From Methylacidiphilaceae bacterium (lineage in GTDB: Bacteria > Verrucomicrobiota > Verrucomicrobiia > Methylacidiphilales > Methylacidiphilaceae), in NCBI GenBank assembly GCA_028710285.1, contig JAQTUK010000004.1:1-33685 (forward strand): 33,685 bases of DNA, written 5' to 3'. This document shows positions 8,451 through 21,788 of the stretch, one piece after another. Position numbers and translations under genes: made by a program. How positions within the stretch are numbered: the stretch's first letter is position 1; each line of letters starts with the position of its first letter. The notes beneath the pieces are model-generated. The model made no database searches, was not told where the DNA came from, and saw nothing but the letters and a program-made list of their open reading frames with translations.

Positions 8451-9049
8451 CGTCCCCTCCCCTTCGCGCCCGCGAGCGGCCGCCGGCTCGCCCGGGAAAG
8501 ATGCACATCCAGCGCGGAAGCGGCCCGGTCTCCCACCGCGCCGAGAAAGGTGCTCCCCGCCCAGGCCGCCACGGCGGCCCCTGGGCCCGTCTCGGCCCCG
8601 AGAATCCCCCCGATCACGCTTCCCAGCCCCTGCGATCCTACCCGCAATCCTGCTTGGGCGAGGTGGATCGCCGAGTCCCGCAGCCGCTCCTCGGCCAGGG
8701 CCCGCCCCGCTTTCCGCCAATCCTCCGACTGAAGAAGCTCCGACGCCCAGCCAAAGCGGCGGGCATGACCGAAAAACTCCCGGCGCCACTGCCGCAGCCG
8801 TTCGGACGAGAATGAGGCATCTCCCTTTCCGACTCCTTCCGCCGCTTTTGCTCCCCCCTGCCGAGAGCGACGGACGGCCTCCGCCTTGGCCCGCTCGATT
8901 CGCGCCCCGCTTTCCTGTCGCCTTCCCTCCTGCCCAATCTGGCGTGAGAAGCTCTTGACCGCTTCCGACAAGACCTCCCGCGCCCCTTGAGCCAGATCCC
9001 CGAAACTCATGGTCACCCGCACCGTTCCTTGTTTCTGTTGCTTGTTCAT
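8447..9049 (-). CDS. hypothetical protein, charged N-terminal half and Gly/Ala-rich C-terminal segment
   Basis: 200-aa ORF from ATG at 9049 (MNKQQKQGTVRVTMSFGDLAQGAREVL...). C-terminal VGSQGLGSVIGGILGAETGPGAAVAAWAGSTFLGAVGDRAA resembles a glycine-zipper membrane segment. No family recognised. Confidence 0.6.
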   Translation of the reverse strand: MNKQQKQGTVRVTMSFGDLAQGAREVLSEAVKSFSRQIGQEGRRQESGARIERAKAEAVRRSRQGGAKAAEGVGKGDASFSSERLRQWRREFFGHARRFGWASELLQSEDWRKAGRALAEERLRDSAIHLAQAGLRVGSQGLGSVIGGILGAETGPGAAVAAWAGSTFLGAVGDRAASALDVHLSRASRRPLAGAKGRGR

Positions 9050-9277
9050 AGGATTCCCGTGGGGCGATCTCCGGTTGAGGCGCATCCCCTTCCTTTCCAT
9101 CCCGGGCACACCGCGCCGCGGGTTTTGGGGAAAAGGGGGCCTCGGCTCTCTTCTGCGCGAAATTTTCCCAGGCAGTGCGTACGATGCCCCAGCCATGGCG
9201 CGAGCACCCCTCTCCCCTGCCCGCACGCCGCAAGGGAAGACGGGACGGCCCGGCGGCAAAGTGCGAAACGCAGCGAT

Positions 9278-9293
9278 CGGCACGAATCCTGCT
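9278..9293 (+). promoter_or_regulatory. candidate sigma54 (-24/-12) promoter element
   Basis: CGGCACG-AATC-CTGCT compared with consensus TGGCACG-N4-TTGCW: GG and GC at correct 10-nt spacing, 10 of 12 consensus positions matched. It lies upstream of a receptor gene linked to a sigma54-type response regulator. Confidence 0.35.
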
Positions 9294-9308
9294 CGGACTT
9301 TGTCCACC

Positions 9309-11756
9309 ATGGAAGCAACCAGTCGCCGGCGCTCCCTGCTCTGCCTGCGCGTTGTCCTCTTCCTCCTTGGCGCCGTTGCCGCCCCGCAAGGGCATTGCAC
9401 GCCGCCCGGCGAACCGCCAGCGGACTCGTCCGGCCCACCCGGGGAAGCAGCGCCACCGGGGGAAGACACCCCAAGCGACCGGAAGCTCCGCAGCGCCCTT
9501 CAGCAACCGAAGCCTCCGGCCAAAAGCCAATCCGATCTCGAAAAGGCGATGTCCCAAATGCCCGAGGTCGAGGTAGTCGCCGTCACGCCGCTGCCGGGCA
9601 TGGGACAGCCGCTGCAAAACCTGCCGGGCAATTATCAGATCCAGCAGGGAAAGACCTGGCTGCAGCAGGAGGAGTTCAGCCTGCCGCAGTTCCTGGAGCG
9701 GAACATGGCGAGTGTCAACGAGGTCAACATGAACGGGAATCCGTTCCTTCCCAATATCAACTACCGCGGCTTCGCCGCCTCCCCCGTCCCCGGAACACCG
9801 GTCGGGATCTCGGTTTTCCTGGACGGCGTCCGGATCAATGAGCCCTTCACCAACAACCTGCTCTGGGACTACGTCCCGCAGCTCGCCATCCAAAACATGG
9901 AGATGGTCCCGGGCTCGAATCCGATCTATGGCCAGAACACCCTGGGCGGAGCCCTGGTTCTTCAGACCAAGAACGGGAGAACCAGCCCCGGCTCGATGCT
10001 TCAGGACTACGCGGGGGTCTGGGGCACCAACGACCTGGAGTTCCAGCACGGAGGATACAAGGGCAACTGGGACTGGTTCCTCAGCGGCAACTGGATGAGC
10101 CAGGACGGCTGGCGGCAGCAGAGCTCAAGCTATGTCAAGCAGCTCTTCGCCAAGGTCGGATATCATACGGAGGAGACCGACGTTCATGTCGAATACATCG
10201 GGGCCGATAACCTGATCAACATCCTCGGCCCTACCCCCCTCGACATGCTGGCTACCGGCGGGAACTCGATGATTTATACCGGGCCGAATCCCCAATACGA
10301 CAATCTGAACATGGTCAACCTGCTCGCCTCGCAAAAGCTCACCGATGAGCTCACCTTGGGTGGCAACGCCTACTTCCGGGAGTCAAATTACAACTTCAGC
10401 AACGGCAATGTCGCCAACAACGTCGACCAGTTCCTCGGCTTCAACTATCCTCCGGCTGCGCAGGCGCTGAATGCCAGCGGAATGCCCATACCGGCCGGGG
10501 AATGGGATTTCGGCTCGATCGCCCAGACGGGCGCGGGTGCCCGGCTCCAGCTCCAGTGGGAGAAGAGCTTCGCCGGCATGGAAAACTATGCGGTGGCGGG
10601 AGCCAGCTACGATTGGGCGCAATGTTTTTTCGGCTCCGGATTCTACCCGGCTGCGATGGGAGCCAACTACAACAACATCACGATTCCGGGCTACCCCTTC
10701 CAGGATCAGTTTTCCGTGCCGACGTTCAGCCAATACATTGGCCTCTACCTGACCGACACCTTTTCGCCCACCCCCTGGTTCCACCTAACGGGCGCGCTTA
10801 GGGACAACTACGCCCAGATGAATATCGGGGGCACAGGGGTCGAGAGCAGCGGGGAGACGGTTTCCCTGGCGGCGGCCGAGCGCTTTCAACAGGTGACCCC
10901 CGCCGCCGGCTTTACCCTCCAGCCGCTCGCCGCCTTCGGAGTCGCCGACCCCACGCTCAAGGATCTCACCTTCTTCTTCAACTACAGCGAGAGCTTTCGG
11001 CCGCCCATGGTGGGCGAGATCACGGGAGCCAATCCGGCGATCCCCGTGATCTTGCCGGTGGCCCAACTCGGAGACCCAGCCCTCGCCCCGGTGCTGGTGC
11101 AGACCTTTGAGAGCGGCTTCCGCGGCAAACTCGCTCCGGGGAACATAGACTGGGCCTTCTCCTTTTATCAGAGCAACCTCTCCAATAATATCATGTTCCA
11201 GCAGACCGGCCATTCGAGCGCCGGTTTTTTCCAGAACATCGGCACGGAGCAAAACCAGGGCGTCGAGGTCACCCTCCAGGGCAGCTACAAGAAGCTCACC
11301 TGGTTCGCAAACTGGTCCTTCCTGGAAGCGACCTTTCAAAGCCCGCTGATCCTGCAGAACGCCGTGAGCACGGCAGTGCCCGTCCAACCGGGCAACCGGT
11401 TGCCGAACCTGCCGCAGCAGATGATCAAGGCGGGGATCACCTATCAACTCCTGCCGCAATGGCAGGTTTCGATGGACTTCCAGTACTATTCGAGCCGCGT
11501 GCTCTACGGGGACTGGGCCAATGTCTATCCAATGCTGACCGGCTTTGCCGTGCTCAACCTTCAAACTTATTATACGCTCAACAAGCATTGCCAGATCTTC
11601 GTCTTTGCGACCAATCTCTATGATGAACAGTATGCAAGCGCGGGGCTCATCAGCCAAAATGTCTTTACGGGAGCTCCCCACGGCGGAACCATTGTACCGT
11701 TCGTGACGCCCGGATCGCCGTTTGGTGTTTGGGGAGGAGTCCGCCTCCAGTTTTGA
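9309..11756 (+). CDS. TonB-dependent outer membrane receptor
   Basis: Signal peptide (RRRSLLCLRVVLFLLGAVAAPQG), plug domain (VNEVNMNGNPFLPNINYRGFAASP...GISVFLDGVRINEPFTNN...NMEMVPGSNPIYGQNTLGGALVLQTK), beta-barrel ending GVWGGVRLQF. Start placed at ATG 9309, not 9009, because the signal peptide begins there. Confidence 0.9.
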   Translation: MEATSRRRSLLCLRVVLFLLGAVAAPQGHCTPPGEPPADSSGPPGEAAPPGEDTPSDRKLRSALQQPKPPAKSQSDLEKAMSQMPEVEVVAVTPLPGMGQPLQNLPGNYQIQQGKTWLQQEEFSLPQFLERNMASVNEVNMNGNPFLPNINYRGFAASPVPGTPVGISVFLDGVRINEPFTNNLLWDYVPQLAIQNMEMVPGSNPIYGQNTLGGALVLQTKNGRTSPGSMLQDYAGVWGTNDLEFQHGGYKGNWDWFLSGNWMSQDGWRQQSSSYVKQLFAKVGYHTEETDVHVEYIGADNLINILGPTPLDMLATGGNSMIYTGPNPQYDNLNMVNLLASQKLTDELTLGGNAYFRESNYNFSNGNVANNVDQFLGFNYPPAAQALNASGMPIPAGEWDFGSIAQTGAGARLQLQWEKSFAGMENYAVAGASYDWAQCFFGSGFYPAAMGANYNNITIPGYPFQDQFSVPTFSQYIGLYLTDTFSPTPWFHLTGALRDNYAQMNIGGTGVESSGETVSLAAAERFQQVTPAAGFTLQPLAAFGVADPTLKDLTFFFNYSESFRPPMVGEITGANPAIPVILPVAQLGDPALAPVLVQTFESGFRGKLAPGNIDWAFSFYQSNLSNNIMFQQTGHSSAGFFQNIGTEQNQGVEVTLQGSYKKLTWFANWSFLEATFQSPLILQNAVSTAVPVQPGNRLPNLPQQMIKAGITYQLLPQWQVSMDFQYYSSRVLYGDWANVYPMLTGFAVLNLQTYYTLNKHCQIFVFATNLYDEQYASAGLISQNVFTGAPHGGTIVPFVTPGSPFGVWGGVRLQF

Positions 11757-11811
11757 CCGACCTTGCCGGCGGGCTCTCGATGGGAATGCGATCGGCGCGA
11801 AACCGGCCTCC

Positions 11812-13284
11812 GTGAAAATCGCGACCCGCATTCGTCTCGCCTCCAGCGTGCTCTTTCTCTTGGTCGCCGCCCTCTCCGTCGAAGCCGCCTGGCTGGCGCT
11901 CCGCGGACAGAAACAGATCGAGCAGGTGGGGGAGGAGCTACTGCAGATCTCCCTGCTCTCCGATCTCGAGCTTTTCGCCCAGCGGGAAGTTGCGGAAGTC
12001 TCCGATGTTCTCGGCGGGAAGGATCCAAAGGCCCGAGCCCAGTTTTCCGCTTTCGCGCGTCAAGCGCGCGAACTCCTGGTCCGCTGCCACTCCCTGCCGC
12101 GGAGCGAAGCGGAAAGGAAGGGCCTTGCCACCGTCGAGCAAAACACGCTTACGCTCGAGAAAATGGGCCGGGAGATCCTTGAGCGGCCGGGACGGCCGGA
12201 AGGAGCCGCTTCTTTTTCCGGGGTTGACTCCCTGGAGGCTTTCCTCGACGGTCCGTTCCGCCAGTCGCTGCGCACCCTCGCTCGCCTCTTCCATGAGGGC
12301 GCGATCGAGCGCGCCGGGGAAAAGGCCCGCCTGCTCAAGGAGACCGCCACGCTCCTGGTCGCTCTCTGCTTCCTTGCCGGCCTGGGATTGGCCGCCCTCG
12401 TCTCTCTCTGGCTCTCCCAAGGGATTGGCCGTCCTTTGCGCAACTTGGTCGAAGCCGCTCGAAGCATCGGCCGTGGGGAGCGCAAAGCCCTTCCGGAAAT
12501 CCCTTCCTCGGGAGATCTTCGAGCGCTCGCCCTGGCCTTCCACCAGATGGCAAGCGAGCTGCAAGCCTCGCAGGAGAAGATCGTCCGGACGGAGCGGATG
12601 GCGACCATTGGGGCCACCGCCGCCGCCGTGGCCCACGGGATCCGCAACCCACTGGCCAGCATTCGCGCGCTGGCGCAGGTGCCGCTCCTGCAGCCCGGCT
12701 CCTCCGGCTCCACCGGCGATACCCTCCGGGAGATCATCTCCGAAACGGACCGGCTCGATCGCCGAATCGGCCAGCTCTTGACCTTCGCCAAGCCCCTCAC
12801 CCCGAGGCCGATTCTGGGTAGCCTCAATGCGCTCGCCGAGGCCATCGCACCCTCCCTGGCCAAAGGGGGAGGCAAGGAGATCGCGATCGCTCTCTGCTTG
12901 GATGCCGATCTCCCACCCGCTCGCTTCGATCCCGCCCAGATGGAACAGGTTCTTCTGGAACTCCTGGCCAACGCGCTCGCCGCCGTCGGCCCGGGCGGAC
13001 AGATCCGACTGCGCACCGGTGTCCAACCGGATCGACGTCTCTACCTCGAGGTCGAAGACGACGGCGAGGGGATTTTGGAGGAAAATCTCTCTCGGGTGAC
13101 CGAGCCCTTTTTTACGACGCGGCCGGAAGGATCGGGCTTGGGCCTGGCCATCGTCCAGCGGTACGTTTCGCAGAATGGAGGCGAGGTGAGCGTGAGCAGC
13201 CAAATCGGCAAGGGAACGCGGGTGACCCTGCTTTTCCCCGCCGCAACCGAGGAGGGCGATGGGACTCAACATCTTACTGGTTGA
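11812..13284 (+). CDS. membrane sensor histidine kinase (NtrB-like, HAMP-HisKA-HATPase_c)
   Basis: GTG start 11812; two TM segments around a helical periplasmic domain; H-box VAHGIRNPLASIRALAQ; N-box LLELLANALAAV; G-boxes VEDDGEGI and GSGLGLAIVQRYV. Confidence 0.9.
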   Translation: MKIATRIRLASSVLFLLVAALSVEAAWLALRGQKQIEQVGEELLQISLLSDLELFAQREVAEVSDVLGGKDPKARAQFSAFARQARELLVRCHSLPRSEAERKGLATVEQNTLTLEKMGREILERPGRPEGAASFSGVDSLEAFLDGPFRQSLRTLARLFHEGAIERAGEKARLLKETATLLVALCFLAGLGLAALVSLWLSQGIGRPLRNLVEAARSIGRGERKALPEIPSSGDLRALALAFHQMASELQASQEKIVRTERMATIGATAAAVAHGIRNPLASIRALAQVPLLQPGSSGSTGDTLREIISETDRLDRRIGQLLTFAKPLTPRPILGSLNALAEAIAPSLAKGGGKEIAIALCLDADLPPARFDPAQMEQVLLELLANALAAVGPGGQIRLRTGVQPDRRLYLEVEDDGEGILEENLSRVTEPFFTTRPEGSGLGLAIVQRYVSQNGGEVSVSSQIGKGTRVTLLFPAATEEGDGTQHLTG

Positions 13285-14641
13285 GGACGAACGAAACCTG
13301 GCCCGGTCGATTCGCGAGCTTCTCACCGCACAAGGCCACGAGGTTGCCCAGGCCTTCGATGGCAACGAAGGCCTCCGGCAAGCCGAGATCACCGCTCCTG
13401 ATCTGCTCCTGCTCGACGCTCGCCTTCCCGGCCTCTCCGGGCCTGAGCTCCTCCGCCGCGCGCGGGCCATCCATCCTACCCTGGCGGCCCTCGTTTTCAC
13501 CGCCTACGCCTCGATCGAAGACGCGGTCGCCGTGATGAAGCTCGGCGCCTTTGACTACCTTCAGAAGCCCCTGGACCTCGATCGCCTTTGCGTCCTGGTC
13601 GATCGGGTCGAGGAGACTGTCCGCCTCAAGCAGGAACTGGCCTACTACCGAAGCCTCGATGAGCCGATCCTGATCGGGGAGTCGCCGGCGATCCTCTCCC
13701 TTCGGGAAAAGATCGACCGGTTGAGCCGGCTCGAGGGAAGTCAAGGACTCCCCACCGTACTGGTCTCCGGAGAAACGGGCACCGGGAAGGACGTCGTTGC
13801 CCGGCTCCTCCACCAACAGAGCTCTCGACGGGGACGCCCATTCTTGGCGATCAACTGCGTGGCGCTTCCGGAAAGCCTGGTCGAAAGCGAGCTGTTCGGC
13901 TACGAGCGGGGAGCCTTTACCGGAGCCCAAGGGGCGAAGCTCGGGCTCATGGAAGCCGCCGACAAGGGCACTCTCTTCCTCGACGAGATCGGCGACCTCC
14001 CCCTCCCCTTACAGGGAAAGCTCCTGACGGCCATTGAGCACAAGACCGTTCGACGGCTGGGCAGCATCCGCGATCGCAAGGTCGACCCGTGGATCCTTGC
14101 CGCGACCAACCGGAATCTTGAGACTTTGATCGGCGATGGCGCCTTCCGGGCCGATCTTTACTACCGGCTGCGCGTCGTCCATCTCGAGCTGCCTCCTTTA
14201 CGCGAGCGGATGGGTGACATCCCTCTTCTGGCGGACTATTTCCTTCGCCTCCATGCCACCCGTTACGGGAAGCCCGGCAAGAAGCTCGCCCCGGAAACCC
14301 TATCGGCCCTGAGGGAATATCCCTGGCCGGGAAATGTCCGCGAGCTCTCCCACGCGATCGAGCAAGCGGTTCTCTGGTCGAAGGAGGAAGCGCTGACTGC
14401 CGCGGACTTCGCCTGGCCAGGCCATCTCGCGGGAGGAGCCGCGCAACCCTTGGCCACTTCCGACGAAGCAATCCGGATGCTCCTTCGCGAAGGGCTCTCG
14501 TCCGCCGAGATCGAGAAACGGCTGCTGCAACAGGCCCTCGAAGCCTCGGGAGGCAATATCTCCCAAGCCGCCCGCCTCGTTGGCATGACTCGGGACATCC
14601 TCCGCTATCGGATGGAAAAGTACGGCATCGGCGCAGGCTAG
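13259..14641 (+). CDS. sigma54-dependent response regulator (NtrC family: REC-AAA+-Fis HTH)
   Basis: REC domain (ILLVEDERNLARS...LLLLDARLPG...YLQKPLD), Walker A GETGTGKD, GYERGAFTGAQ (sigma54-contacting GAFTGA motif), Fis HTH ASGGNISQAARLVGMTRDILRYRMEKYGI. Overlaps the kinase by 26 bp. Confidence 0.95.
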   Translation: MGLNILLVEDERNLARSIRELLTAQGHEVAQAFDGNEGLRQAEITAPDLLLLDARLPGLSGPELLRRARAIHPTLAALVFTAYASIEDAVAVMKLGAFDYLQKPLDLDRLCVLVDRVEETVRLKQELAYYRSLDEPILIGESPAILSLREKIDRLSRLEGSQGLPTVLVSGETGTGKDVVARLLHQQSSRRGRPFLAINCVALPESLVESELFGYERGAFTGAQGAKLGLMEAADKGTLFLDEIGDLPLPLQGKLLTAIEHKTVRRLGSIRDRKVDPWILAATNRNLETLIGDGAFRADLYYRLRVVHLELPPLRERMGDIPLLADYFLRLHATRYGKPGKKLAPETLSALREYPWPGNVRELSHAIEQAVLWSKEEALTAADFAWPGHLAGGAAQPLATSDEAIRMLLREGLSSAEIEKRLLQQALEASGGNISQAARLVGMTRDILRYRMEKYGIGAG

Positions 14642-14759: not shown

Positions 14760-15506
14760 ATGAGCCACGCGCCCGGCCTCCGCAGAGAACCGCGTCTTTT
14801 CCTGGTCGTTCGCCTGCTCTCGCTCCTGTTGGGCTTCTCAGCCGGGCTCTTTCTTGTCCGAGCGAGAGCCATTCCGGTACAGCTCGTGTCGGCAAAGCGG
14901 TACTATACGCTCTCCCTATCCACAGCGGCGGGCCCAGGCCAGGCCGCTCAACCCTACGTCCGGTATCAGGCACAATGGCAGTTCGTGAACCGAGGGGCAG
15001 GCCGCACTTTCGAAATTTTCAGCTTCGAACTCCCCTATCTGCCCTACATGGAATACCGCGCTTGGGCGCACGGCATTCCGCTCTCCGTCCGAAAGGACGG
15101 CAATCGCTATTCCTTGTCTCTCCACTTGCGGAGGGGAGAACGGGCTGTCGTGGAAGTCTCCTCCCTGCAACGCGTCCTGCCGATCGACCCCGCTCGGAAG
15201 ATCGACGAGTTTCAGGATCTGATCCAATGGGGCGGTTGGAGTCCTCCCATCGAGGACTTTTGGATTGTCGTCGACCTGGGTGGAATCTATGCCGCGTATC
15301 AAAAGCAGCTTCCCGCCTTCGGCCTGGGAGGAAGCGGTCCCGCCCCCAGCCTCTCTTTCCCGCAGTTCCTCTCGAACCGGATCGTCCAAATCTCGCCGGG
15401 AGGCTATCAAACCGGAGTCAACAAAATCTGGTGGCACTCCCAAAACGTTTGGAAGGAATCCGAATATTACCACATGCGCGTGCAGTGGCAGGCCTGGTAT
15501 CGATAG
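14760..15506 (+). CDS. secreted/periplasmic protein of unknown function, paralogue A, upstream of xoxF
   Basis: N-terminal hydrophobic signal; LQRVLPIDPARKIDEFQDLIQWGGWSPPIEDFWIVVDLGGIYAAYQ...C-terminal VQWQAWYR aligns with the gene at 19732..20532. Confidence 0.85.
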   Translation: MSHAPGLRREPRLFLVVRLLSLLLGFSAGLFLVRARAIPVQLVSAKRYYTLSLSTAAGPGQAAQPYVRYQAQWQFVNRGAGRTFEIFSFELPYLPYMEYRAWAHGIPLSVRKDGNRYSLSLHLRRGERAVVEVSSLQRVLPIDPARKIDEFQDLIQWGGWSPPIEDFWIVVDLGGIYAAYQKQLPAFGLGGSGPAPSLSFPQFLSNRIVQISPGGYQTGVNKIWWHSQNVWKESEYYHMRVQWQAWYR

Positions 15507-15667: not shown

Positions 15668-17530
15668 ATGAGGTTCCCAAAAAGCAGGAAGAAGCTCTCT
15701 GCCGGGATGCTCCTGGCACTGGCGGTCGGCACCGCGACGGCGATTCCGTCGGCTTATTCCAACGACGATGTACTGAAACTCACGGAGAATCCCAAGAACT
15801 GGGCGGCTCCAGGGAAGGATTACGCAAACACCCGGCACAGCAGCTTGAAGCAGATCAACACGCAGAACGTCAAAAGCCTGCACATGGCTTGGTCGTTCTC
15901 GACGGGTGCGCTTCGCGGCCATGAAGGTCAGCCGCTCGTCATCGGCGACCGCATGTACGTCGTGAGCGCCTATCCCAACATCGTGTGGGCGCTCGATCTC
16001 TCCAAGGGAGGGTCGTACGAAGTCCTTTGGAAGTATGTACCGAGACAGGATGACAAGGCAGTCTCGGTGGCCTGCTGCGACACGGTCAACCGCGGGGCAT
16101 CCTACGCCGATGGAAAGGTCGTCTTCAACACCCTCGACGGCTATGTCGTCTGCTTGGACGCCAACACGGGCAAGGAGCTCTGGAAGACCAAGTTTGCGGA
16201 TGTCAACAAGGGCGAGACGAGCACTCCCGCCCCGATCATCGTCAAGGACAAGGTCTTCACCGGATACGGCGGGGATGAGTTCGGCGCTCGCGGCCGCTTC
16301 GCCGCTTTCGACCTGAACTCGGGCAAGATGGTCTGGCAGGCTTATAGCTCCGGACCCGACGCCGACGTGCTTCTCGGCTCCGACTTCAACAGCAAGCACC
16401 CCGAGTATGGTCAGGCCGGCCAGGATCTCGGAGTCAAAACCTACCCCGACGAGGAGTGGAAGCGGGGCGGAGGCTGCGCCTGGGGCTGGTACAGCTATGA
16501 TCCCAAGCTCGACCTGGTCTACTACAACACGGGCAATCCCGGTCTCTGGAGCCCCAGCTACCGGACCGAGGCCAAGACCTATGAGGAGGCCAACGAGCCC
16601 TGGAAGTGGGACAACAAGTGGTCGATGACTGTCTTCGCCCGGAAGCCCGACACCGGCGAAGCCGTGTGGGGCTACCAGCTGACCCCGTTCGATCAGTGGG
16701 ACTACGACGCCATCAACGAGGACGTTCTCGTCGACATCAACGTCGACGGCACCAAGAAGCCCTGCCTGGTCCACTTCGACCGGAACGGATTCTGCTACGT
16801 CCTCAACCGCACGGACGGCGGCATCATTCGCGCCAACAAGTTCGTGACGGCGAACTGGGCCGAGAAGATCGATATGAAGACCGGGCGTCCCGTGAAGGTG
16901 AAGGAGCACGCTCCGTTCGAGATCGGCAAGGCGGTGCAGGCCTACCCCTCGGCTCAAGGCGGCAAAGACCAGCAGCCGGTCGCCGTCGATCCGAAGGAAG
17001 CCAATGTCTTCTATGCGCCGACCAATAACTGGGGCATGACCCTGGAGCCGATGGAGCGCGCCCATACCAACCAGGGGAGCGTCTACGTCTTCGCCAACGT
17101 CCTGATGAAGGCGGAGAAGCCGGGCATTCTTGGCCGCTTCAAGGCGTTCGACGTGATCACGGGCAAGGCGCGCTGGGACATTCCGGAGCGCTTCCCGACC
17201 TGGAGCGGCGCCCTGGTTACCGACGGAGGCCTCGCCTTCTACGGAACCCTGGACGGATGGTTCAAGGCCGTCGATCGGAAGACCGGCAAGGTCCTCTGGC
17301 AGCAGAAGCTGAGCTCCGGCATCATCGGCAACCCGATCTCCTACGAGGTCAACGGCAAGCAGTATATCTCGATCCTCACCGGGATCGGAGGCTGGATCGG
17401 TCTCGCGATCACCGCGGGCCTCGACCCGGCGGATCCCTACGGCGCGCTCGGCGCTGCCGGTCTTGCCTTCGAGAATGGGTTCGAGAAAGTGCCGATGGGC
17501 GGCACGCTCTACACGTTCTGCGTGCAGTAA
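15668..17530 (+). CDS. xoxF: lanthanide-dependent PQQ methanol dehydrogenase XoxF
   Basis: 620 aa with signal peptide; vicinal disulfide VACCDTVNRG; QWDYDAINEDVLVDI contains the DYD motif whose second Asp distinguishes XoxF from MxaF; PQQ beta-propeller repeats; strong SD GGAGGAGG (15652-15659). Confidence 0.96.
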   Translation: MRFPKSRKKLSAGMLLALAVGTATAIPSAYSNDDVLKLTENPKNWAAPGKDYANTRHSSLKQINTQNVKSLHMAWSFSTGALRGHEGQPLVIGDRMYVVSAYPNIVWALDLSKGGSYEVLWKYVPRQDDKAVSVACCDTVNRGASYADGKVVFNTLDGYVVCLDANTGKELWKTKFADVNKGETSTPAPIIVKDKVFTGYGGDEFGARGRFAAFDLNSGKMVWQAYSSGPDADVLLGSDFNSKHPEYGQAGQDLGVKTYPDEEWKRGGGCAWGWYSYDPKLDLVYYNTGNPGLWSPSYRTEAKTYEEANEPWKWDNKWSMTVFARKPDTGEAVWGYQLTPFDQWDYDAINEDVLVDINVDGTKKPCLVHFDRNGFCYVLNRTDGGIIRANKFVTANWAEKIDMKTGRPVKVKEHAPFEIGKAVQAYPSAQGGKDQQPVAVDPKEANVFYAPTNNWGMTLEPMERAHTNQGSVYVFANVLMKAEKPGILGRFKAFDVITGKARWDIPERFPTWSGALVTDGGLAFYGTLDGWFKAVDRKTGKVLWQQKLSSGIIGNPISYEVNGKQYISILTGIGGWIGLAITAGLDPADPYGALGAAGLAFENGFEKVPMGGTLYTFCVQ

Positions 17531-17542
17531 TTCGACAGATCG

Positions 17543-17562
17543 GTTAGATCCATGCATCTAAC
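17543..17562 (+). promoter_or_regulatory. intergenic hairpin with the xoxJ start codon in its loop
   Basis: GTTAGAT-CCATGC-ATCTAAC: perfect 7-bp inverted repeat; ATG 17552-17554 lies in the 6-nt loop, in the 21-nt gap between xoxF and xoxJ. Confidence 0.5.
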
Positions 17563-19165
17563 GGGAAAGGGCGGACTGTTCCAATGGGGGTGGTCCGCCC
17601 TCTTCCTTTTCCTGTCGTCCGTTTGTCTGGTCTCCGCGCAGCCAGCCGACCTTCCCCTGCGGGTCTGCGGCGACCCCGGGAACATGCCCCTCTCCAATAG
17701 CCGCGGAGAGGGATTTCAGAATAAGCTCGCCGAGCTGCTGGCGCGGGCCATGGGCAAACGCCTCGACTACTTTTGGTACACCTACTACGAGCGAGGCTTG
17801 GTCCGAGCCACGCTGAACGCGAGCCGTTGCGATCTCCTCTTCGACATGCCGCCCGACTTCGAGTTGGCTCTCCCGACCAAGCCTTACTACAAGTCGGCTT
17901 TTGTTCTCGTGACCCGCAAGGACCGCAATCTCCACATCCGGTCCCTGGATGACCCGATTCTCAAGACCCTTCGCATCGGCGTCTTCCAGGCCTCGGCCGC
18001 CCGCGATGCGCTCCGAAACCATGGAATCCAGCACAACACGGTCGTCCACTACATCTTTTACGATTCGCGCGTACACCCGGAACAGCATCCCGCCGAGCAG
18101 GTCGAGCAGGTGATCCAAGGAACGCTCGATGCCTGCGCGATCTGGGGTCCCATGGCCGGCTACTATGTCGCCAAGGCCAAGGCTCCGCTCGACATCACGC
18201 CTCTGAACACGATGGAGGAGACCGTTCCGCTGGAATACGCGATGGCGCTCGCCGTCCCCAAGGGAGACAAGAGCCTCCGCGACGGTCTCAACCGCGCGAT
18301 GGAAGAGCACAAGACGGAAATCAAGGAGATCCTGACCGAGTTCGGCGTGCCGCTGGTCCACTGTCCCGAATGCATCGTCGACGGCGATCTCCCCGCCCAC
18401 GAAGGAATGTACAAGCCGCTGCCTCCTCCCCCCGCTCCCTCCCGGGCCGAGACGACCGAACACGGTTCCTTGCAGGACTGCGTGACAGCGGATGACCTTC
18501 CGGCCGCCGAAAAGTTCCTAGCCAAGGATCCGCGAGCCATCAATGAGCCCGACAACCTCGGCTTTACTCCCTTGCTCAACGCCGTCCGCACGGCAGAATG
18601 GCCAATGGCCCGGCTTCTCGTGGACAAGGGAGCCAACACCAACCTGCCCGACCCCGATGGTTGGACTCCGCTTCTCTTTGCGATCTCCAAAGGACATCAC
18701 GACACGATCCGCCTGCTGCTCGAACACGGAGCGAATCCCTCCGCAACTGCCAAGGACGGCTGGTCTCCCCTGGCGCTTGCGGCGAGCGGCTCCGATCCCG
18801 AGCTCGCCCTGCTTCTGCTTGCTCATGGGGTACCGGTGAACGGGAGGAGCGGCCCGGGGGGTTACACTCCCCTGATGTTCGCTGCCACCTCCGGTTCGGA
18901 AGCCGTCGTCCGCACGCTGCTCGACAAAGGTGCGGATCCCAACGCTGCCAACCCGGCAGGGATCACCCCGCTCATGCTGGCGGTCTCTCGCAACCGGCAG
19001 CCGATCGTTGAACTTCTTCTGCGTGCGGGCGCCCGTCCGGACCAGCGAAACCTTGCTGGGAAGACCGCGCTCGCCCTCGCGCAGGAAAGGGGTTATCAAA
19101 CTCTCGCTTCCCTCTTGGAACGAGCGAGTAGCCCGACGAAGAAGACCGCGCCTCCCGCCCGATAG
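17552..19165 (+). CDS. xoxJ: XoxJ-like periplasmic substrate-binding protein fused to C-terminal ankyrin repeats
   Basis: Signal peptide; PLRVCGDPGNMPLSNSRGEGFQNKLAELLARAMGKRLDYFWY is typical of the MxaJ/XoxJ family; Pro-rich linker PPPPAPSRAE; then GFTPLLNAVRTAEWPMARLLVDKGANTNLPD, GWTPLLFAISKGHHDTIRLLLEHGANP, GYTPLMFAATSGSEAVVRTLLDKGADPNAAN and GITPLMLAVSRNRQPIVELLLRAGARPD ankyrin repeats. Confidence 0.9.
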   Translation: MHLTGKGGLFQWGWSALFLFLSSVCLVSAQPADLPLRVCGDPGNMPLSNSRGEGFQNKLAELLARAMGKRLDYFWYTYYERGLVRATLNASRCDLLFDMPPDFELALPTKPYYKSAFVLVTRKDRNLHIRSLDDPILKTLRIGVFQASAARDALRNHGIQHNTVVHYIFYDSRVHPEQHPAEQVEQVIQGTLDACAIWGPMAGYYVAKAKAPLDITPLNTMEETVPLEYAMALAVPKGDKSLRDGLNRAMEEHKTEIKEILTEFGVPLVHCPECIVDGDLPAHEGMYKPLPPPPAPSRAETTEHGSLQDCVTADDLPAAEKFLAKDPRAINEPDNLGFTPLLNAVRTAEWPMARLLVDKGANTNLPDPDGWTPLLFAISKGHHDTIRLLLEHGANPSATAKDGWSPLALAASGSDPELALLLLAHGVPVNGRSGPGGYTPLMFAATSGSEAVVRTLLDKGADPNAANPAGITPLMLAVSRNRQPIVELLLRAGARPDQRNLAGKTALALAQERGYQTLASLLERASSPTKKTAPPAR

Positions 19166-19202: not shown

Positions 19203-19706
19203 ATGAAAAGAGGAAAACGCACTACGTCTTGGACACGTTATCTGTTGCCGGGCCTGGCCGGCCTCTGGCTGACCGCCGCGGGGGCGCAGCAGCAGCCCGC
19301 AGCACCCCTGTCGACACCCGCACCCGCAGGACAGCAGCCCGCCTCCGCCGCCGGGGGTGCGATGAAGAACCCTTACACCGGCAATCAGCAGGCAATTGCC
19401 GAAGGGAGGAAGCTCTGGTTCAGCCGAAGCTGCAACGGCTGCCATGGCGGGATGGGAGGCGGGGGAATGTGTCCGCCCGTCATCAACGATACGTGGGTCT
19501 ACGGCAGCGAGGACAAGACGCTCTTCGAGCTGATCAAGTATGGTAGCGTCGAACTCCAGAAGAAGGGGTTCACGCGGATCGGGCGAGAGAACGTCGTGGC
19601 TCCGATGCCGCCCTTCGGCACCGTCATGAGCGACGATGAAATCTGGAAGGTGTTGGCCTTCGTCCGCTCGATCTACCACGGCGACCCCAAGCTCATTAAC
19701 TGGTAG
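19203..19706 (+). CDS. xoxG: periplasmic c-type cytochrome, XoxG-like
   Basis: Signal peptide, Ala/Pro/Gln-rich linker, one CNGCH heme c site (19431-19445), GGGGMCPPVINDTWVYGSEDKTLFELI and MPPFGTVMSDDEIWKVLAFVRSIY; directly downstream of xoxF-xoxJ. Confidence 0.85.
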   Translation: MKRGKRTTSWTRYLLPGLAGLWLTAAGAQQQPAAPLSTPAPAGQQPASAAGGAMKNPYTGNQQAIAEGRKLWFSRSCNGCHGGMGGGGMCPPVINDTWVYGSEDKTLFELIKYGSVELQKKGFTRIGRENVVAPMPPFGTVMSDDEIWKVLAFVRSIYHGDPKLINW

Positions 19707-19731: not shown

Positions 19732-20532
19732 ATGAAGCCAGGCAGGGGGCGAGGAGTTTCCGAGACGGCCATCCCGGTCTTTTCTACGGCCACCTCGCCC
19801 CCTTCCCTGGGGAACTCCTGCGGGAAGCGCCACGACTCCTTCCTCCGCGCGGGTGGCGCTCTGCTGGTCTGTGCGCTTGCGTTCCTCCAGGCGGCCGCGA
19901 CCGCCCGCGCTCAATTCATTCAGCTCATTTCCACGCGGAAGTACTACACCCTTTATCTCTCTGCTTCTTCCCAAGACGGCCGCCGGGAGCCCCTTCTGCG
20001 GGAGATCTTCCTCACCCGCTTTCGTAATTTCGGCCCGGCGGCTGTGCTGCCCGTCTATCATGACGAGATCCCTCAGCAGCCCTATCTCGAATACCGGGAT
20101 TCGATCGACGGCCGCCCGATCCCCGTGCAGAAAATTGGCAACCAATATTGGGACAACATACGGTTTCCCGGCGGACAAGAAATCGAGCTCCGGACCGATG
20201 CGCTCCAGCGGGTCTTGCCACGTGATCCCGGCCGAAAGATCGACTTTTTTGAAGACACGATCCAGTGGGGCGGCTGGCGTCCTCCGATCGACGATTACTG
20301 GATCGTCGTCGACCTCGGAAAGATGTATGCCTCCTTTCGCCAGACTCCCGCATTCGGGATGGGGGGTGGTCCTCCGCCGACGTTCCAGGAGTTTCTCACG
20401 AATCAAGTGGTCCGCGTCCTTCCGGCCGGCTATCGGGTCCAGGGAAGCACGGTCTGGTGGCACTTCCAGCGGATCTCCGCCCCGCTAGGAAGCTCCACTC
20501 TTCACGTGGAGTGGAAAGCCTGGTACCGATAA
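19732..20532 (+). CDS. secreted/periplasmic protein of unknown function, paralogue B, downstream of xoxG
   Basis: LQRVLPRDPGRKIDFFEDTIQWGGWRPPIDDYWIVVDLGKMYASFRQTPAFGMGGG...VWWHFQ...VEWKAWYR aligns with 14760..15506; start at ATG 19732 precedes the hydrophobic signal. Confidence 0.85.
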   Translation: MKPGRGRGVSETAIPVFSTATSPPSLGNSCGKRHDSFLRAGGALLVCALAFLQAAATARAQFIQLISTRKYYTLYLSASSQDGRREPLLREIFLTRFRNFGPAAVLPVYHDEIPQQPYLEYRDSIDGRPIPVQKIGNQYWDNIRFPGGQEIELRTDALQRVLPRDPGRKIDFFEDTIQWGGWRPPIDDYWIVVDLGKMYASFRQTPAFGMGGGPPPTFQEFLTNQVVRVLPAGYRVQGSTVWWHFQRISAPLGSSTLHVEWKAWYR

Positions 20533-20555: not shown

Positions 20556-21659
20556 CTAGGGGAGATCCAGGCTCCCGTAGGCCCTTGGATAGGTCACGAT
20601 CCCCCAAGGCAGCGGGATGCTGCCTAAGACCTTGAGCAGCCGGTAGCTTCTCGCGTCGAAAACCAGCACCTCGTTGGAACGTCCGCAGGCAGCCAGAATC
20701 CGTTCGCCGTCGGGCGTGAAGGTAAAATGCCAACACCTCCTACCCACCTTTACCTCTTTGACCAGCTTCCGACTCCCGGCATCGAAGACCTGGAGCTTCT
20801 GCGCACGGGAGGCGGCGACAAGGAAATGCTTGCCTTCCGGATCGAACGAGATTCCATACGGCCCCGCCGCGGTGGGCACGGAGGCAACGAAGTTCAGCTC
20901 CCTGTCCAGCATGACCACGTTGCTGGAACTCTCGAGCGAGACGAGGTACTCGCTGCCGTCGGGAGAGCGCTTGACCCCTCGCGGGCGGCTGCCGTACGGA
21001 CGAAGATCCACCCGCCGGACCTCGGCGCCGGTCTCCAAGTCGTAGACGCGCAACGAATCTTCCGATTCGTTGGCGCAGAGAAGCTTCTTTCCATCGGCCG
21101 AGAGCTCGATCCCTTCCGTATCCAAGCTCGCAGGAAAGGTCCGCACGACCTGCCAGCCTGCCACGTCGATCTCCACGATCTGCGCGGGCGTTTTTTCAGC
21201 AGCCGCCTCTTGAGCTTTCTTTTCGGCCTCGGTCTGCGGTCCCTTGGGGGGAGGCCCTTCGGAGGCCGGCTCGTGGGCGACGAAGAAGTGGCGTCCATCC
21301 AGGCTGAACTTGAGGAACTCGGGCTTGGGACCAATCGGAATTCGCCGAATCACGTGGCCGTTCTTCCGATCGATCACCGCGACGTCCTGGCTTGCCTTGT
21401 TGGCGGTGACGACATAGCGGCCATCCCGAGTCACCCCAATTCCTCGAGGACCGGAGTTGTGGAGAGAAAAACGCCGCGTGACCGTCATCTTTTCCAAGTT
21501 GATCGCCACGACTCCGACGGGCTCCACGCTCACGAAGGCGGTAGCGGCCTCTCCCGGATTTGCCGCGAAGAGCCATGCGGCGGTCGCCAAAACAGCGATC
21601 GCCGACCCGCACCGCCGCCAGACACTCGGAACGACAATTCCCTCTTTCCTCACAAACAT
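20556..21659 (-). CDS. secreted YVTN/cytochrome-D1-type beta-propeller protein (resembles PQQ-catabolism-associated propellers)
   Basis: Signal peptide (AIAVLATAAWLFAANPGEA); repeats GIGVTRDGRYVVTANKASQDVAVIDRKNGHVIRRIPIG, GIELSADGKKLLCANESEDSLRVYDLETG, GISFDPEGKHFLVAASRAQKLQVFDAGS, FTFTPDGERILAACGRSNEVLVFDARS. Confidence 0.85.
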   Translation of the reverse strand: MFVRKEGIVVPSVWRRCGSAIAVLATAAWLFAANPGEAATAFVSVEPVGVVAINLEKMTVTRRFSLHNSGPRGIGVTRDGRYVVTANKASQDVAVIDRKNGHVIRRIPIGPKPEFLKFSLDGRHFFVAHEPASEGPPPKGPQTEAEKKAQEAAAEKTPAQIVEIDVAGWQVVRTFPASLDTEGIELSADGKKLLCANESEDSLRVYDLETGAEVRRVDLRPYGSRPRGVKRSPDGSEYLVSLESSSNVVMLDRELNFVASVPTAAGPYGISFDPEGKHFLVAASRAQKLQVFDAGSRKLVKEVKVGRRCWHFTFTPDGERILAACGRSNEVLVFDARSYRLLKVLGSIPLPWGIVTYPRAYGSLDLP

Positions 21660-21788
21660 TGTCTTACCAAGCAGTACCGGCGATGACAATAGGCCGGTGC
21701 GATGGCCCACGGATTTCCCGATTGCGGTGGCTTTTTGGTTGCGCGGAAGTTCCGGCCGAACGTAAAGTGACCTTCACGTCGGACGCAC

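Follow-up and report, generated by a model that had tools for sequence, protein, structure and literature searches.

A XoxJ protein with a C-terminal ankyrin domain accompanies the XoxF1 lineage of lanthanide methanol dehydrogenases

The gene xoxJ1-ank encodes a XoxJ protein whose periplasmic binding-protein head is followed by a C-terminal ankyrin tail. As judged by sequence comparison, lanthanide methanol dehydrogenases of the XoxF1 lineage normally have this two-domain form as their XoxJ in at least three phyla, and its ankyrin tail was not encountered beside any other XoxF.

Architecture and genomic setting of xoxJ1-ank

The window is the whole stretch of DNA analysed, 33,685 nucleotides of contig JAQTUK010000004.1 (assembly GCA_028710285.1) from a Methylacidiphilaceae bacterium. 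Its genes run in the order TonB receptor, histidine kinase, response regulator, secreted protein, xoxF, xoxJ-ank, xoxG and second secreted protein, with the following features.

9009..11756, plus strand: TonB-dependent receptor, upstream, with its true start probably inside the open reading frame; its place is consistent with that of cirA in the xoxF1 region of AP8
11722-13284, plus strand: histidine kinase upstream of xoxF1, function read from sequence
13259-14641, plus strand: sigma54-type response regulator upstream of xoxF1, function read from sequence
14760-15506 and about 19873-20532, plus strand: paralogous pair of exported proteins flanking the xoxF1 cluster, by sequence comparison
15668..17530, plus strand: xoxF1, lanthanide methanol dehydrogenase of the XoxF1 lineage, by tree, AP8 structure match and diagnostic residues
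16565..16609, plus strand: XoxF1-lineage loop insertion, XoxF residues 300-314, by the active-site GNPG stretch, from alignment
17552..19165, plus strand: xoxJ1-ank, predicted exported XoxJ with a C-terminal ankyrin-repeat domain, 537 aa, by reading of the frame, profile matches, orthologs and an AF2 model
17552..17638, plus strand: Sec-type signal peptide, residues 1-29, VSA-Q junction at 29/30, read from sequence
17657..18358, plus strand: XoxJ/MxaJ-type binding-protein domain (TIGR03871), residues 36-269, by profile match
18356..18412, plus strand: CxxC-containing hinge motif VHCPECIVDGDLPAHEGMY, residues 269-287, from alignment of XoxJ-ankyrin proteins
18416..18448, plus strand: Pro-rich flexible linker, residues 289-299, from sequence and AF2 (pLDDT <50 at residues 294-301)
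18458..19126, plus strand: ankyrin domain, residues 303-525, a degenerate N-cap and six canonical repeats, by Pfam, AF2 and fold search
19203..19706, plus strand: xoxG, exported cytochrome cL-like protein, by profile matches

A single open frame runs from the ATG at 17552 to the TAG at 19165 with no internal stops, and from its Sec-type signal we infer that the product is exported to the periplasm. Residues 36-269 match NCBIfam TIGR03871 with 268.9 bits against a cut-off of 212.15 (E 3.7e-80), the alignment spanning positions 2-232 of the 232-position profile, and xoxF and xoxG adjoin the gene, as expected of a XoxJ; with 135.7 bits against a cut-off of 258.1, the protein is not a member of the MxaJ equivalog TIGR03870. 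The tail consists of tandem helix-pair repeats of about 33 residues that score over Pfam cut-offs: residues ~311-525 match five ankyrin models (PF00023, PF12796, PF13606, PF13637 and PF13857; best E 9.6e-38), and canonical repeats start near residues 334, 367, 400, 434, 467 and 500. NCBIfam ankyrin matches to Legionella effectors fell far below their cut-offs and were set aside as generic ankyrin similarity, and no near match to the ankyrin DNA was found among plasmid sequences. The AF2 monomer model (mean pLDDT 87, pTM 0.54) has two confident domains on either side of a linker disordered at residues 294-301. In a Foldseek search the head retrieved MxaJ and XoxJ structures, its closest solved relatives being M. 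extorquens XoxJ (6onp) and MxaJ (5sv6/9ism), while the tail retrieved ankyrins and DARPins. The initial annotation had rightly described a protein with an export signal and an N-terminal XoxJ/MxaJ-type part, here resolved as XoxJ, joined through a Pro-rich linker to ankyrin repeats; its count of five to six repeats was slightly low, the model having seven helix pairs, one of them the degenerate N-cap.

The order xoxF-xoxJ-xoxG in the window agrees with that of M. thermophilum AP8, where xoxF1 (1700), xoxJ (1701) and xoxG (1702) follow one another and where xoxF1 and xoxJ are expressed and xoxF2 is not (PMC7907005). The enzyme encoded beside xoxJ1-ank matches the solved AP8 XoxF1 (7o6z) over 620/620 residues. 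It has Asp203-Glu204, an Asp before the metal-binding Glu that marks the XoxF1 lineage and that in AP8 is Asp172-Glu173 (PMC8546591), together with the lanthanide-coordinating pair Asp345/Asp347 and an adjacent Cys pair at 136 (PQQ disulfide). The window genome holds a second XoxF on another contig (L106, G000:C142:3640-5367), which is 50% identical and groups weakly with Methylacidiphilum XoxF; just one XoxJ was detected in this genome, and no second XoxJ to serve that second XoxF was found there.

The two secreted proteins that flank the cluster are 44% identical when mature and had no Pfam or NCBIfam match. Their family has 3-10 copies in 11/13 genomes of the bacterial family, with the common motif RVLPxDP..KID..W..PPI.D[FY]WIVVDLG, and a fold search with a model of the flanking protein (pLDDT 66) gave weak beta-sandwich matches, which were set aside. 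One copy, at G021:C1:1020710-1021442, is broken by in-frame stops. That the ankyrins might tether these proteins, as had been suggested at first, is unlikely to hold as a general rule, because they were seen beside the fused gene only in Methylacidimicrobium loci; the binding of XoxF or of the cytochrome XoxG, part of the same suggestion, may still apply. Beside the cluster, 20556-21710 on the minus strand encodes a beta-propeller like PQQ-catabolism-associated repeats (TIGR03866, below cut-off), and many XoxF1 clusters have a comparable propeller gene close by.

Distribution of the fusion and its pairing with XoxF1

When 85,462 species genomes were scanned with the head domain, 80 loci were recovered. 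XoxJ with ankyrins is encoded at every one of the 36 closest (L025-L060), and 22 more distant loci examined in the same step encode XoxJ proteins without ankyrins that end shortly after the 'YGVPxV' position. All 37 aligned XoxJ-ankyrin proteins match Pfam Ank. The fusion occurs in Verrucomicrobiota, in alpha-, beta- and gammaproteobacteria and in Methylomirabilota, the 36 loci coming from Rhodanobacteraceae, Lysobacteraceae, Methylophilaceae, Rhodocyclaceae, Methylovirgula, Methyloceanibacter, Hyphomicrobium, Ca. Methylomirabilis and Methylacidimicrobium. Its presence in three phyla rules out an invention specific to one genome or genus, and the suggestion of an unusual chimera in the initial annotation gives way to an architecture that is widely shared. 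The further remark of that annotation, that this architecture is not known from described XoxJ proteins, agrees with our search of open-licence full text, in which we found neither a pairing of XoxJ, XoxF or Methylacidimicrobium with ankyrins in the sense of this fusion nor the link between XoxJ-ankyrin and XoxF1; the architecture may stand in subscription papers or domain-architecture databases. The reviews and proteomics papers searched name the protein only 'XoxJ' or 'SBP' (e.g. PMC7907005, PMC9291206).

Several candidates for further fusions were rejected. Long XoxJ frames in G664, G897, G1135, G1167 and G1180 owe their extra length to upstream read-through, and the C-terminal stretch of L079, L093 and L158 is rhodanese-like, not ankyrin. 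This stretch, seen in some alphaproteobacterial XoxJ-type proteins (L079 5260-7245, L093 5419-7344, L158 1384-2745, the last scoring under the Pfam cut-off), is a second kind of XoxJ tail.

When all loci were counted with identical heads removed, and with XoxF classes assigned by similarity to reference sequences whose own sorting had followed ankyrin status, 42 XoxJ-ankyrin genes adjoined XoxF1 and none another XoxF, while 83 XoxJ genes without ankyrins adjoined other XoxF and none XoxF1. A further 2 XoxJ genes with and 36 without ankyrins had no XoxF on the fragment or nearby. Two independent marks of the XoxF1 class were checked, the Asp of the literature and a loop insertion. The Asp is present in 32/34 members of the lineage (Asn in 2/34), against Gly in 30/31 aligned others; the loop adds roughly 11-23 residues between GNPGxWSPxxR and DNKW and is absent in 33/33 other XoxF. 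A Cys pair in this loop is found in nearly all members of the lineage, not in Methylacidimicrobium. The reverse search, from XoxF1 into 369 gamma- and 385 alphaproteobacterial genomes, gave strong matches only in genomes with XoxJ-ankyrin and no exception to the pairing among the 754; one weaker match (626 bits) groups with other XoxF and adjoins a XoxJ without ankyrins. Where genomes of Hyphomicrobium, Methylomirabilis and Methylotenera carry both kinds of XoxJ, each stands beside its matching XoxF. One Hyphomicrobium genome (G444; L187, L188) has two XoxF1/XoxJ-ankyrin clusters ~9 kb apart as well as two XoxJ without ankyrins.

The XoxJ-ankyrin proteins also share a hinge between head and tail, with the consensus GVPLxxCxxC..xGDLPSHGxY. 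Its CxxC is found in 44/44 ankyrin forms and in 0/119 XoxJ without ankyrins; both Cys and Gly278 are invariant in 34/34 aligned proteins, and His283 and Tyr287 are kept in 31/34. In the XoxF tree all XoxF1 sequences fall into one clade (SH-aLRT 100), and a single change accounts for the ankyrin label; one change also suffices in the tree of XoxJ heads, where the split is weakly supported (SH-aLRT 68). Read from these trees, the ankyrin tail belongs to the XoxF1 module and has a single origin, and its loss was never observed. Since tail, hinge and XoxF1 loop each arise once on the same branch, their co-occurrence counts as one event and not as many independent ones.

The XoxF1 module probably reached Methylacidimicrobium by lateral transfer, because the nearest non-verrucomicrobial head (Rhodanobacteraceae, gammaproteobacterial) is 58% identical to that of the window, whereas XoxJ of Methylacidiphilum is 36-39% identical. 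In Methylacidiphilum and in the family's third genus XoxJ lacks ankyrins, and vertical descent from the Methylacidiphilum protein is unlikely.

Possible roles of the ankyrin tail

Our preferred reading, to which the analysis as a whole lends about an even chance, is that XoxJ1-Ank would be a bipartite maturation factor, with its head on apo-XoxF1 and its tail on a second site. XoxJ1 would then be a dedicated two-domain helper of XoxF1-lineage methanol dehydrogenases that arose once and travelled with XoxF1. The head would bind apo-XoxF1 in the way that MxaJ does MxaF, and the tail, on its flexible linker, would grip a second site, for which the XoxF1-specific loop by the mouth of the active site is the first candidate and XoxG the alternative. 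In this way the tail may raise affinity or keep XoxF1 in the right state during insertion of PQQ and lanthanide and docking of XoxG, much as periplasmic AnkB aids catalase, while the CxxC hinge, by forming a disulfide or a metal site, might set the geometry between the two domains. We propose such a clamp because of the MxaF/MxaJ complex structures (9ism, 9iso) and the periplasmic AnkB helpers of catalase: periplasmic ankyrin proteins are known enzyme-activating helpers, and AnkB-type ones bind catalases, which require them for activity (PMC10294975, PMC7567364). In M. extorquens La-dependent growth on methanol needs XoxJ no less than XoxF, and XoxJ is thought to activate XoxF (PMC7391723), and in Methylocella silvestris XoxJ1 is produced and co-regulated with XoxF1 (PMC9291206). 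On the opposing side, AP8 XoxF1 was purified as a single dominant band amenable to kinetics (PMC8546591), so XoxJ would not be needed once the enzyme is mature.

Fingertip positions of ankyrin repeats are usually variable. Since Trp371, at a finger position of the tail, is nevertheless kept in 29/34 proteins and Asp367 in 33/34, the alignment gives a hint of a common tail partner. A bolder form of the clamp proposal, in which XoxF1 is a mechanistically separate branch that needs a two-domain assembly factor, with a hinge-positioned tail recognising the XoxF1-only loop and controlling the loading of cofactor or metal, strikes us as doubtful; if true, it might relate to the reported cases of XoxF1 enzymes with calcium or with repression by lanthanides (PMC9291206).

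Alternatively, the tail could act as a scaffold instead of aiding maturation, and bring XoxF1 together with XoxG or with some other partner in the periplasm or membrane (oxidase, pMMO), a reading that we hold to be possible and somewhat on the unlikely side. Ankyrins are binding modules, and xoxG lies directly downstream in most clusters. Carriers of the fusion include organisms, Rudaea among them, that are not known as methanotrophs, so that pMMO is an improbable partner for the fusion at large. A XoxJ sequence fused to XoxG in Methylacidiphilum (PMC6688271) suggests selection to keep J and G together, but in AP8 xoxG is expressed above xoxJ (PMC7907005), which makes a stoichiometric scaffold less likely.

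We consider it improbable that the tail is an add-on for stability or folding, devoid of a specific partner and kept because the module was inherited whole. The tail changes faster than the head and its number of detectable repeats is variable, which would suit such an add-on and means that a fixed tail interface is not established. However, a dispensable tail would be expected to be lost somewhere, and no loss was seen among 44 XoxJ-ankyrin genes in three phyla; the invariant hinge and the selection within the genus speak against dispensability as well. Within Methylacidimicrobium the head has a mean dN/dS of 0.06 and the tail one of 0.14, so both parts are under purifying selection.

The window genome belongs to this genus, as do genomes with loci that match Methylacidimicrobium tartarophylax, M. 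cyclopophantes and strain LP2A; five other genomes of the genus encode full-length orthologs (537-539 aa, 81-88% identity), and in a sixth a truncated contig end encodes residues 197-537. Although the window sits in a 227-contig draft assembly, the same join in those five genomes, three of them with one to three contigs, and in the 36 loci of the species collection refutes a lineage-specific chimera and rules out a frameshift or assembly artefact as well as the sequencing error joining two frames that the initial annotation had named as its possible undoing, leaving this explanation with practically no probability.

A naturally bipartite XoxJ tied to one enzyme lineage offers a clean handle on XoxJ function: removal or swapping of the tail alone could show where in XoxF maturation or in electron transfer it is required. 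XoxJ-ankyrin is also a one-gene marker by which XoxF1 systems can be recognised in genomic and metagenomic data, and it exemplifies a bacterial ankyrin domain that is periplasmic and has a likely partner.

Comparison with known systems

XoxJ of Methylorubrum extorquens AM1 (6onp) shares the periplasmic binding-protein fold over residues 36-269 and is likewise clustered with xoxF and xoxG. In contrast to the xoxJ1-ank product, it lacks the CxxC hinge and the ankyrins, and the alignment stops at 'vPLL' of its 284-residue chain. MxaJ (5sv6; complex 9ism, 9iso) has the same fold at 28% identity and has been structurally shown to complex the large subunit of methanol dehydrogenase; it differs as a TIGR03870 equivalog without ankyrins. 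XoxJ1 of Methylocella silvestris (Msil_3148, reported as 'SBP') has the same gene position in a XoxF1 cluster and was detected as protein; the paper does not mention an ankyrin domain, and the ankyrin architecture is expected.

Another domain fusion involving XoxJ is known in the same bacterial family, namely XoxGJ (cytochrome cGJ) of Methylacidiphilum. There, however, the cytochrome precedes a XoxJ that is truncated, a full XoxJ exists separately, ankyrins are absent and the protein is not a XoxF1 partner. Finally, the AnkB/KatB-type catalase helpers resemble XoxJ1-Ank in placing a bacterial ankyrin beside the gene for a cofactor-dependent enzyme; AnkB is needed for full activity and is periplasmic in Pseudomonas aeruginosa. 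AnkB is a stand-alone ankyrin protein with no binding-protein domain that serves a haem enzyme, whereas the neighbours of xoxJ1-ank are xoxF and xoxG and not a catalase gene, so that the likeness is one of analogy only.
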